In this document: positions 46,079-47,915 of the stretch, one piece after another
Position numbering within the stretch: position 1 is the first letter of the stretch
How the letters are laid out: each line of letters begins with the position of its first letter
Assembly (NCBI RefSeq): GCF_006539125.1
Contig: NZ_BJMK01000003.1
Coordinates: forward strand, 124,001 to 188,000
Length of the DNA: 64,000 nt
Direction of reading: 5' to 3'
From: Gluconobacter sphaericus NBRC 12467
Lineage (GTDB): Bacteria > Pseudomonadota > Alphaproteobacteria > Acetobacterales > Acetobacteraceae
The notes under the pieces: model-generated
The model's input: the letters and a program-made list of their open reading frames with translations, nothing else
Database searches by the model: none
What the model was told of the DNA's origin: nothing
Position numbers and translations under genes: made by a program

Positions 46079-47113
46079 ATGGACGCTTTTCCGAGACGCT
46101 CCCGCTCATCTTCCGCGGCGGGAGACACAACAACACTGACAGTCCTCTCGCCGCTTCAGGTGCAGGATCTGTTTTCTGCCCGGCTGGATGAGATCTGCGC
46201 CGCTTTCGACGAATGGGGCTTTCCGCTGATCGTAGCGGGACAGCTTGGTGATGCCGCGCCTAATGCTTATCCCAAATATTACCAGCTTCCCCTGACCGAT
46301 CCGCAATTCGGAACCACCCTGGCTCTCGAAGTGCAGAAATCCATTCTGGCGCGGGCCGAAGTCGGGCCCGGCGATTACGTCCATGTCACCGGCATGCTGC
46401 GCGCCCGACAGTATCGCGGACAGGTCGTTCTGCGTTTCGAAGTGGTCGCCGTGGAACTGCATGATCCGGATCGTCAGAAGATCGAACGCGTCGAACGTTC
46501 CGTTCTGGACGTCCTGCGTGGGTTGCCCTGCGCATTTCACCCCTATCCCACCCGGCCGGAGGCGCGGCTCCTGCTGATTCATTCCGCAGCCTCCAGTGCA
46601 TTGGTGGCCGAGGATTTCCTTCAGGCTCTCGGCGGGGCCTGGCGCCCGGAACGTGTGCGAAGTCTGCCCACGGCCATGAACGATCCAAGTCGTCTGGCAG
46701 AGGCGATCCGCACCTGCCGGGAAGACATCATCGTTCTGATTCGTGGGGGCGGGGACGTGTCCGATTTTGTGGTGTTCGAAAACCCGCTGGTGCTGGAAGT
46801 TTTGGCCGCCTGTCCTGCGCATCGCGTTCTGGGGCTGGGACATACGGCAAACCGGACTTTGGCCGAACGTGTTGTTGACCATGCCGCAACAACCCCGGCC
46901 GATGCCGGGCATTACATCCGGCGCATGAGCGGCCGGGTTTGGCAGGAACAGGAAGAAGCCCGTGCGCAGCAGGAAGAAATGGCTGCGCTGCGTGACAGCG
47001 TGACGCAAACTGTTGTGCCCGAGCGGACGCCGATCGGAACACGTCTGCGCAACGGCCTGATCCTGTTTGCGATTGGTGTAGCGCTGGGGCTGCTTCTGAC
47101 CCGGCTGCTTTAA
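46079..47113 (+). CDS. Membrane-anchored exonuclease VII large-subunit-like protein
   Basis: 344 residues. An OB-fold-like region (about 18-125; YYQLPLTDPQFGTTLALEVQ, GDYVHVTGMLRARQYRGQVV) is followed by a domain with the ExoVII large-subunit landmarks LIRGGGDVSDFVVFENPLVL (RGGGD at 222-226) and GLGHTANRTLAERVVDHAAT, TPADAG. Unlike XseA, it lacks the long coiled coil, and it ends in one transmembrane helix (about 322-341; LILFAIGVALGLLLTRLL). So it is a shortened, tail-anchored relative of a DNA nuclease. No small subunit (XseB) is adjacent. It could act on DNA at the membrane; activity is untested. Confidence 0.7.
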   Translation: MDAFPRRSRSSSAAGDTTTLTVLSPLQVQDLFSARLDEICAAFDEWGFPLIVAGQLGDAAPNAYPKYYQLPLTDPQFGTTLALEVQKSILARAEVGPGDYVHVTGMLRARQYRGQVVLRFEVVAVELHDPDRQKIERVERSVLDVLRGLPCAFHPYPTRPEARLLLIHSAASSALVAEDFLQALGGAWRPERVRSLPTAMNDPSRLAEAIRTCREDIIVLIRGGGDVSDFVVFENPLVLEVLAACPAHRVLGLGHTANRTLAERVVDHAATTPADAGHYIRRMSGRVWQEQEEARAQQEEMAALRDSVTQTVVPERTPIGTRLRNGLILFAIGVALGLLLTRLL

Positions 47114-47244
47114 GGAGCAGATGTTTCCCGGAGTGTTGCGGTTGTCCGCAGGACGGCGAGGGCTGTGGCGTTAAGAAAGAGGCACAGACCGAAACCGGTG
47201 CACAGGATACCCAGCACCAGTTTGGTCCCGGTCCGGTACCTCAC
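47110..47244 (-). CDS. Small single-helix membrane protein
   Basis: A GTG start at 47244 gives 44 residues with a basic N-terminus (VRYRTGTK) and one transmembrane helix (about 9-33; VLGILCTGFGLCLFLNATAL). A GGAACAGAGG site lies upstream. It follows the lipoprotein gene by 31 bases and overlaps the end of the XseA-like gene by 4 bases, convergent. It may be chance, but the hydrophobic pattern is convincing. Confidence 0.4.
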   Translation of the reverse strand: MRYRTGTKLVLGILCTGFGLCLFLNATALAVLRTTATLRETSAP

Positions 47245-47275
47245 AGCGCCTCTGTTCCGGGCATGGCTTCGGAGA

Positions 47276-47770
47276 TCAGCGTACGTCGACGCGGACGGAC
47301 GGTTTTGTGGCCGACGGATCGGTAATGGCGTGCATTTCGATCTGGATGGGCTGTGCGCCAGCCTTTTCAAGATGGGACGCGACGACTGCCGCCAGATGGT
47401 TGGTCACATCTGTTAAGGCCTGTGCCTGACCGTCGGGGGTCGGCTGTGGCGGTGCAAAGGCCTGCACGATGAAGAGGACGTTCGCCTTGCGTGACAGGGC
47501 AGCCTTCGCAGCGCGTTCCACGATGGGGCCGTATTCGGATTCTGGCGTCCCCCCTGCGATCGCCAGAAACGGAGCATGTGGCGGCGGTGCAGGCGGCGCA
47601 GGCGGAATATGGGGGTGAGGGGGCTTGCCCGCATTCGGGTTGAACGTGCGCTGGTCCAGCAGCTTGCATCCCGAGAGAAGGGGCGCGGCCAGAAGAAGCC
47701 CTCCCATCAGGAGGACGGAGCGGGGCACAGAACCCCGCGGCGAACGGAAATGTCGGACAAAAGGTGCCAT
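47276..47770 (-). CDS. Putative lipoprotein with Pro-rich linker
   Basis: 164 residues from the ATG at 47770. A lipoprotein signal with lipobox LLSGC (about residue 38) is followed by a Pro/His-rich linker (PPHPHIPPAPPAPPPHAP) and a soluble domain (SEYGPIVERAAKAALSRKAN, then VLFIVQAFAPP). The family is not recognised; the linker suggests a tether through the cell wall. Divergent from gap. Confidence 0.65.
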   Translation of the reverse strand: MAPFVRHFRSPRGSVPRSVLLMGGLLLAAPLLSGCKLLDQRTFNPNAGKPPHPHIPPAPPAPPPHAPFLAIAGGTPESEYGPIVERAAKAALSRKANVLFIVQAFAPPQPTPDGQAQALTDVTNHLAAVVASHLEKAGAQPIQIEMHAITDPSATKPSVRVDVR

Positions 47771-47915
47771 ATCGTGCGGAACCGTCGCAGGAACGGAGGC
47801 TTTGAGCAAGATTATAGAGCCAACTTAATGAAAAACTGTTGATGCCCCCTGTTGCTCTGCTGTGGCGGTGCTATGGAGGATGCCCGAGTTTTCAAGAAAC
47901 GGAGTAGGGCAGGTC

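Follow-up and report, generated by a model that had tools for sequence, protein, structure and literature searches.

Exonuclease VII (ExoVII) is generally treated as a soluble enzyme made up of XseA and XseB. Four residues of E. coli XseA, D155, R205, H238 and D241, reportedly matter for its catalysis, as is said of work by Poleszak in 2012. The title of the PDB entry 8txr, which names an H238A form, is consistent with a catalytic H238. According to PMC5684230, the OB domain of E. coli XseA binds DNA, its middle domain is catalytic and its coil binds XseB. Among the open-licence papers that we searched, none was found on membrane-anchored or XseB-less ExoVII. Here we describe a protein encoded in a 64,000-nucleotide stretch of the genome of Gluconobacter sphaericus NBRC 12467, which is called the window throughout. 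Like canonical XseA (PF02601, TIGR00237; 8txr) this protein has an OB domain followed by an ExoVII-type core, and it carries RGGG and GH motifs. It differs from canonical XseA in its length (344 amino acids, compared to 456 in 8txr and 517 in the XseA of the same host), in having a short helix and a transmembrane tail where canonical XseA has the long XseB-binding coil and a C-terminal segment, in carrying Asn at the place of D241, and in failing the cut-off of the xseA equivalog. The domain and fold of the window protein are already known; the tailed short lineage to which it belongs, the mobile homes of that lineage and the repeated change at D241 seem to be undescribed as far as our literature search reaches. 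The gene and its parts are the following.

46079..47113, + strand: tail-anchored ExoVII-like protein (open reading frame; PF02601, 54.8 bits; conservation in Gluconobacter; dN/dS 0.079 overall)
46079..46135, + strand: N-terminal segment, residues 1-19, starting with MDAFPRR (alignment; low-confidence part of the model, pLDDT <50)
46136..46462, + strand: OB-fold-like domain, residues 20-128 (AlphaFold2 secondary structure; hhalign to XseA; OB-dominated structure matches)
46559..46894, + strand: ExoVII-type catalytic-core domain, residues 161-272 (Pfam, alignment to 8txr, hhalign; dN/dS 0.044, the lowest of all regions)
46613..46615, + strand: D179, equivalent of E. coli XseA D155 (alignment to 8txr, with a two-residue gap; active-site table)
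46742..46744, + strand: R222 of RGGGD, equivalent of E. coli R205 (alignment to 8txr; active-site table)
46841..46843, + strand: H255, equivalent of E. coli H238 (alignment to 8txr; active-site table)
46850..46852, + strand: N258 at the place of E. coli D241, Asp to Asn (alignment to 8txr; active-site table)
46895..47011, + strand: helix, residues 273-311 (EExRAxxEExxALRxS), where XseA has the long XseB-binding coiled coil (AlphaFold2 model)
47033..47107, + strand: C-terminal helix with a single transmembrane tail, residues 319-343 (hydropathy 2.29; AlphaFold2 helix)

The reading frame (46079-47113, + strand) codes for 344 amino acids plus a stop codon. A first-pass annotation, made from the sequence of the window, had taken the product for an ExoVII relative, and both landmarks on which it relied are present, RGGGD at residues 222-226 and GLGHTANRTLAERVVDH at residues 252-268. 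The start MDAFPRR shows few changes in the alignment of the Gluconobacter group and its sister genera. An M[D/E][A/V]F N-terminus whose position is shared by 34/34 extracted Acetobacteraceae loci backs the start in the window, with the reservation that in 19 of those 34 loci the start codon had been picked by this very pattern; the relatives in the genomes G375 and G399 lack this N-terminus. PF02601 (Exonuc_VII_L) matched residues 173-300 of the window protein with an E value of 1.3e-14 and 54.8 bits against a cut-off of 35.9, and the match covers positions 24-158 of the 315 in the profile. The score for the NCBIfam xseA equivalog TIGR00237 was 53.3 bits, below the cut-off of 180. When seven motif-bearing Gluconobacter rows were aligned by hhalign with 15 canonical XseA rows, a probability of 97.7% was obtained, and the alignment paired residues 16-279 of the window protein (OB plus core) with XseA positions 7-266. 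The ExoVII relation was thus borne out by profile searches against XseA families, and the lack of any such relation, named beforehand as a refutation, did not arise. The OB-like region proposed earlier is backed by the same alignment and by an OB-like barrel in the AlphaFold2 model. As to membership in canonical XseA, the protein has no long XseB-binding coiled coil or C-terminal segment; one helix and then a transmembrane helix are found there.

The host genome (3.06 Mb) also carries a full-length XseA (a frame of 520 codons) on contig C1 and XseB on contig C5, and the window protein is 31% identical to this XseA across a stretch of 103 columns. It had been argued beforehand that no XseB gene is adjacent to the ExoVII-like gene. 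This is true, but it makes a weak argument, as both XseB and a full-length XseA are encoded elsewhere in the genome.

An AlphaFold2 model of the window protein, built on a 27-row alignment (mean pLDDT 80.7, pTM 0.50), contains an OB-like barrel at residues ~48-127, an alpha/beta core from 164 to ~270, and helices at 273-311 and 319-343. The best three Foldseek matches were all to chains of the E. coli ExoVII structure 8txr, with E values between 2.2e-17 and 4.4e-16 that surpass the next match by ten orders of magnitude, and the structure matches beyond 8txr were mostly generic OB folds. With VIA-align, residues 35-324 were superposed on 8txr_B with a Z of 18.0, the runner-up being an MCM chain (Z 11.8, residues 13-129); the rmsd of 10.0 over 273 residues suggests that the domains are probably placed differently from those of 8txr_B. 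The helical part had been described as missing. The long XseB-binding part is indeed absent, but a short helix is predicted at residues 273-311 before the tail. The single C-terminal transmembrane helix was recovered both as the one hydrophobic segment of the tail, with a 19-residue Kyte-Doolittle mean of 2.29, and as the model helix 319-343. A tail hydropathy of at least 1.78 was reached in 4 of 34 checked window genes including the window protein; the other three are two polytopic proteins and one single-segment protein with a CxxCH motif. The survey of tail conservation gave values of at least 1.78 in 37/37 Acetobacteraceae rows, a few of them identical, and in 0/31 canonical-type XseA rows, where the maximum was 0.75 (one row is cut by a contig end). 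Some Acetobacteraceae rows stem from one genome that was taken twice, with identical rows for the window and L003, for L004 and L033, and for L046 and L061, so there are fewer independent cases than rows.

The active site was compared in a table of 67 rows selected for RGGG and, in the case of the xse rows, for G[HA]xx[DN]x[TS] as well. Owing to this selection R205 is necessarily conserved in the table, and the canonical rows can tell only whether D or N stands at D241. The table leaves out L025 (a contig-cut XseA), L103 and the motif-less rows described below, and Microvirga stands in none of its groups. In the canonical four-residue test, the window protein keeps three of four residues (the equivalents of D155, R205 and H238) and has N258 in place of D241. 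Every table row has D at the first position and H at the third, including 20/20 motif-bearing Gluconobacter rows and 9/9 short forms from plasmids. The fourth position is Asn in 20/20 motif-bearing Gluconobacter rows and Asp in 2/2 rows from G375 and G399, as it is in 5/5 haloarchaeal and 31/31 canonical rows. Among the nine plasmid short forms it is Asn in four, Asp in three and Glu in two, and two Thermus plasmid copies carry one D and one N. The change from D241 to Asn makes full ExoVII-like activity of the window protein doubtful.

The window protein was used to search 299 genomes of the family, and a full-length relative turned up in 19, namely in 7/7 genomes of the window's genus, 6/7 of g33, 2/2 of g61, 3/3 of g101 and 1/1 of g70; the g33 genome that has no paralog-level match is G032, where loss of the gene, a gap in the assembly or divergence may be the cause. 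Each of those 19 genomes holds a second match, which in 18 of them is of canonical type with 484-529 codons among the matches listed. When 395 genomes of the order were searched with a profile, strong matches (E 3.4e-70 or better) numbered 44, with 26 of them in Gluconobacter, 10 in g33, 2 in g61, 3 in g101 and one each in g70, g43 (G399) and g31 (G375), and the other listed members of g43 and g31 are without the gene. The frame is open in 26/26 listed Gluconobacter genomes, and no listed genome without a match belongs to Gluconobacter. At the level of the class (385 genomes, E <=1e-12) no genome beyond the window's own was found. The phylum search (398 genomes) gave one other match above 97 bits, apparently the Sulfuricystis plasmid pSTJ1, and when 397 genomes of the family were searched with the G399 protein (E <=1e-14), 29 genomes matched and no new kind of relative appeared.

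Selection was estimated by the Nei-Gojobori method on pairs pooled from 14 G. oxydans-group sequences, and the values come without confidence limits. The dN/dS ratio was 0.079 overall, 0.044 in the core, 0.071 in the OB domain, 0.086 in the C helix, 0.089 in the linker, 0.193 in the tail and 0.210 in the N-terminus. In 18 motif-bearing Gluconobacter rows the core was again lowest (0.085), with 0.091 in the C helix. Constraint is thus strongest in the core, and this speaks against a simple decay of the gene in the lineage of the window.

In the Acetobacteraceae loci examined, those of G375 and G399 excepted, the gene lies at a syntenic place: it is flanked on one side by gap, pgk and a lipoprotein gene, and on the opposite side by an amino-acid permease gene (in many loci), a DUF4186 gene or an ArsC-like gene. 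A glycosyltransferase-like gene is convergent to the ExoVII-like gene in many loci, in most of the other lineages. The labels glycosyltransferase-like and ArsC-like are our own reading, made without a family search. Both gap and pgk are present in 25/25 loci used for the GAPDH+PGK tree. The nearest co-directional gene in several loci of g33 and g70 is the ArsC-like one, which ends 58-84 bases upstream and offers no pointer to DNA work; in the window it is more than 8 kb off. No DNA-transfer or repair gene stands beside the ExoVII-like gene in the window genome. Since there is no steadily co-directional partner, the neighbours give no function. No functional link to the DUF4186, small-protein and lipoprotein genes was seen; they belong to a syntenic locus. 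The small open reading frame in the window (86 amino acids, 47110-47370, minus strand) has no family match and overlaps the end of the lipoprotein frame 47276-47809. In many relatives the glycosyltransferase-like gene replaces it at that place.

Relatives were also found on mobile DNA. With the G375 protein as tblastn query against plasmids, copies were detected in Sulfuricystis (E 3e-29, 350 aa) on a plasmid typed as mobilizable and in Azospira (E 2e-25, 351 aa) on a conjugative plasmid. Further plasmid short forms, among the matches examined, come from Paenibacillus, Thermus (two), Allomeiothermus, Prevotella, Bacteroides and Rhodococcus, and since the collections searched outside Pseudomonadota were plasmid, phage and viral ones only, the plasmid context may be exaggerated. 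No small subunit is annotated near any of these nine forms in the stretch examined, plasmid annotation being incomplete. The tail hydropathy is at least 1.97 in six of the nine (Sulfuricystis, Azospira, Paenibacillus, both Thermus and Prevotella). The Allomeiothermus tail reaches 1.34, Bacteroides has none, and Rhodococcus has no terminal tail and, by eye, a hydrophobic stretch further in. Four of the plasmid proteins (WP_126447975.1 of Sulfuricystis, WP_152091082.1 of Azospira, WP_052452951.1 of Paenibacillus and WP_202819410.1 of Thermus HB5002; 338-351 aa) resemble the window protein in their membrane tail, in Asn at D241 and in having no small subunit annotated in the stretch examined. They differ from it in being plasmid-borne and distant (Sulfuricystis is 30% identical to the window protein) and in their unlike tail stalks. 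Within Acetobacteraceae, a relaxase gene (DUF3363 plus Relaxase) ends 16 bases ahead of the copy in G399 (L089), and VirD4-, TrbB- and TrbE-type genes lie downstream, so that this copy is part of a conjugation module. The G375 copy has chromosomal-looking surroundings of metabolic genes, and both loci differ from the common syntenic one. The Paenibacillus copy has, on its upstream side, genes for a Cthe_2314-like HEPN protein and for a member of the TIGR02391 family (L096:1720-4167).

A viral origin was considered and rejected, as four scans of viral_contigs gave no relative and nothing in the phage collection matched the window protein. Matches to the Paenibacillus query were found in 49 phage records, in one of them (L122) over more than 80% of the query; this one is of the ordinary XseA type and has no tail. 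With a Prevotella-type query, a match came up on a single faecal 'phage' scaffold (7 kb, unverified), whose ExoVII-like frame of 506 codons (L146:2932-4449) combines a long coiled coil with a membrane tail. This frame is close to the Prevotella and Bacteroides plasmid forms and is included in no tree or table.

Defence was among the roles suggested by the first-pass annotation; as a defence or exclusion factor, the protein would degrade or block incoming phage or plasmid DNA at the membrane. The plasmid-borne, membrane-placed relatives and the HEPN and TIGR02391 proteins annotated upstream of the Paenibacillus copy would suit such a role. However, in PADLOC-DB at E 1 the window protein and three neighbours matched 0 families, and unlike most defence genes the gene is syntenic and intact in 26/26 listed Gluconobacter genomes. 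We regard a defence role as improbable.

In a core-domain tree of 53 rows, from which motif-less rows, the contig-cut XseA L025 and L103 were left out, 16 short forms fall on one side of a branch, apart from canonical XseA (93/95; 93% of 200 bootstrap trees). The Gluconobacter proteins form a group with G375, G399, Sulfuricystis and Azospira (98/95, starred in the tree), and the host's own XseA groups with other Acetobacteraceae XseA. As caveats, long branches meet in this tree, and in the drawn tree Paenibacillus branches basally on the canonical side. The tree also bears on the possibility that the window gene is a truncated or decaying duplicate of the host's XseA, to which the partial coverage of PF02601 (24-158 of 315) might point. 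We consider this extremely improbable and rejected it on the grounds of selection, distribution and the core tree: dN/dS is 0.079 overall, the frame is intact in the 26 listed Gluconobacter genomes, the tree puts the window protein with the short forms and not with Acetobacteraceae XseA, and the tail is absent from the 31 canonical-type rows. Nor are the relatives full-length XseA of which this one would be a truncated copy, the other refutation named at the outset.

A tail is also found in haloarchaeal XseA from plasmids (e.g. WP_004966502.1 of Haloarcula), where four of five proteins examined have a C-terminal transmembrane helix like that of the window protein. Unlike the window protein, those four have a small subunit annotated beside them and Asp at D241. 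In the core tree the haloarchaeal tailed XseA fall among the canonical rows, so their tail looks separately acquired. The four genes (L098:4962-6173, L123:1926-3029, L124:1689-3059 and L125:1530-2969) have tails of 2.8-3.2 and the small subunit directly downstream, so that their products look like canonical ExoVII apart from the tail anchor; the fifth (L128) has no tail and looks cut short.

The RGGG and GH motifs are absent from the proteins of four Gluconobacter genomes (G054, G131, G180 and G326) and of all examined members of g33, g61, g70 and g101. What these motif-less proteins keep is the OB domain, the tail, a helix of the EExRAxxEExxALRxS type and, slightly changed, the N-terminus. 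In ten motif-less rows the mean identity to the window protein is 42% in the OB domain, 51% in the helix and 29% in the core, and 0/9 motif-less members match PF02601 at E 1. Aligned to XseA by hhalign, a nine-row motif-less set reached 59.9% probability and a three-row motif-less Gluconobacter set an uninformative 4% (alignment depth 1). The sister groups have lost the core motifs and kept the rest, which suggests that the nuclease is dispensable to what these groups do with the protein. As to the number of losses, the full-length tree has one change of motif state, with weak support (68/98, 74% of bootstraps). The GAPDH+PGK tree (25 rows, midpoint root, no outgroup) has two changes, and 1% of its bootstrap trees allow one; the OB+helix tree also has two, with a one-clade tree not rejected (p-AU 0.26). 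A twofold independent loss of the motifs rather than a single one would be the better reading of these trees, short of being proven.

These relatives raise the question whether the Gluconobacter protein might already be a pseudoenzyme, a membrane-tethered ssDNA-binding or scaffold protein that does no cutting and represents a step towards its motif-less sisters. The Asn at D241 in 20/20 motif-bearing Gluconobacter rows agrees with this, as do the better conservation of OB domain (42%) and helix (51%) than of the core (29%) in the ten motif-less relatives and the failure of PF02601 to match any of nine at E 1. However, no region is under stronger constraint in Gluconobacter than the core. Moreover, N or E recurs at the place of D241 in 6/9 plasmid relatives and Thermus has both D and N forms, so the Asn does not look like simple decay. 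Such a pure binding role is the main rival reading and a strong one, which we would nevertheless call tentative rather than probable.

We lean, with about as much confidence as doubt, towards a membrane-tethered protein of plasmid origin, which binds ssDNA, perhaps also trims it, and belongs to a distinct, mostly tailed lineage of short ExoVII-like proteins that have no annotated XseB. One copy of this lineage seems to have become fixed on the chromosome of the Gluconobacter group. The transmembrane tail would hold the window protein at the cytoplasmic face of the inner membrane, and the helical stalk would set its domains off the membrane. There the OB domain may bind single-stranded DNA, and the ExoVII-type core (D179, R222, H255, and N258 for the fourth acidic residue) may act on the strand or its end, either as a slow or altered nuclease or as an end-holding domain. 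We infer this cytoplasmic unit for binding and trimming ssDNA because the roles of the domains are known, core residues are kept, the core is under constraint and close relatives have a mobile context; the orientation, DNA binding, activity and chromosomal fixation of the window protein are all part of that proposal. The substrate might be DNA that is taken up, transferred or under repair at the membrane. What the proposal builds on was observed: the sequence and its architecture, the relation to ExoVII, the constraint on the core, and the plasmid and conjugation context of the relatives.

A wider idea, on balance doubtful, is that there are undescribed XseB-independent, membrane-tethered ExoVII-like ssDNA enzymes on plasmids and conjugative elements of several phyla, which act on DNA strands while these cross the membrane or undergo processing there. 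The Gluconobacter group might then have domesticated one of them, and its active site might have died at least twice while the DNA-binding frame was kept. A short membrane branch that seems to manage without XseB, and in one case lies beside conjugation genes, points to a use of the fold in DNA transfer or in DNA processing on the membrane side. Furthermore, Acetobacteraceae offer a natural series in the same frame, with Asp motifs in G375 and G399, Asn in the window's group and no motifs in the sister groups. With this series one could test directly whether the fourth catalytic residue is needed and what the non-catalytic frame does.

Finally, the Sulfuricystis and Azospira copies each adjoin an annotated PD-(D/E)XK protein, which in Sulfuricystis is DUF3799 by Pfam. 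A short ExoVII-like gene adjoining a PD-(D/E)XK nuclease gene was seen at L094:6731-8924 (Sulfuricystis/Azospira) and at L144:3317-5636 (Bacteroides). Neighbours of this kind on unrelated plasmids perhaps form a two-nuclease pair for the processing of DNA ends.
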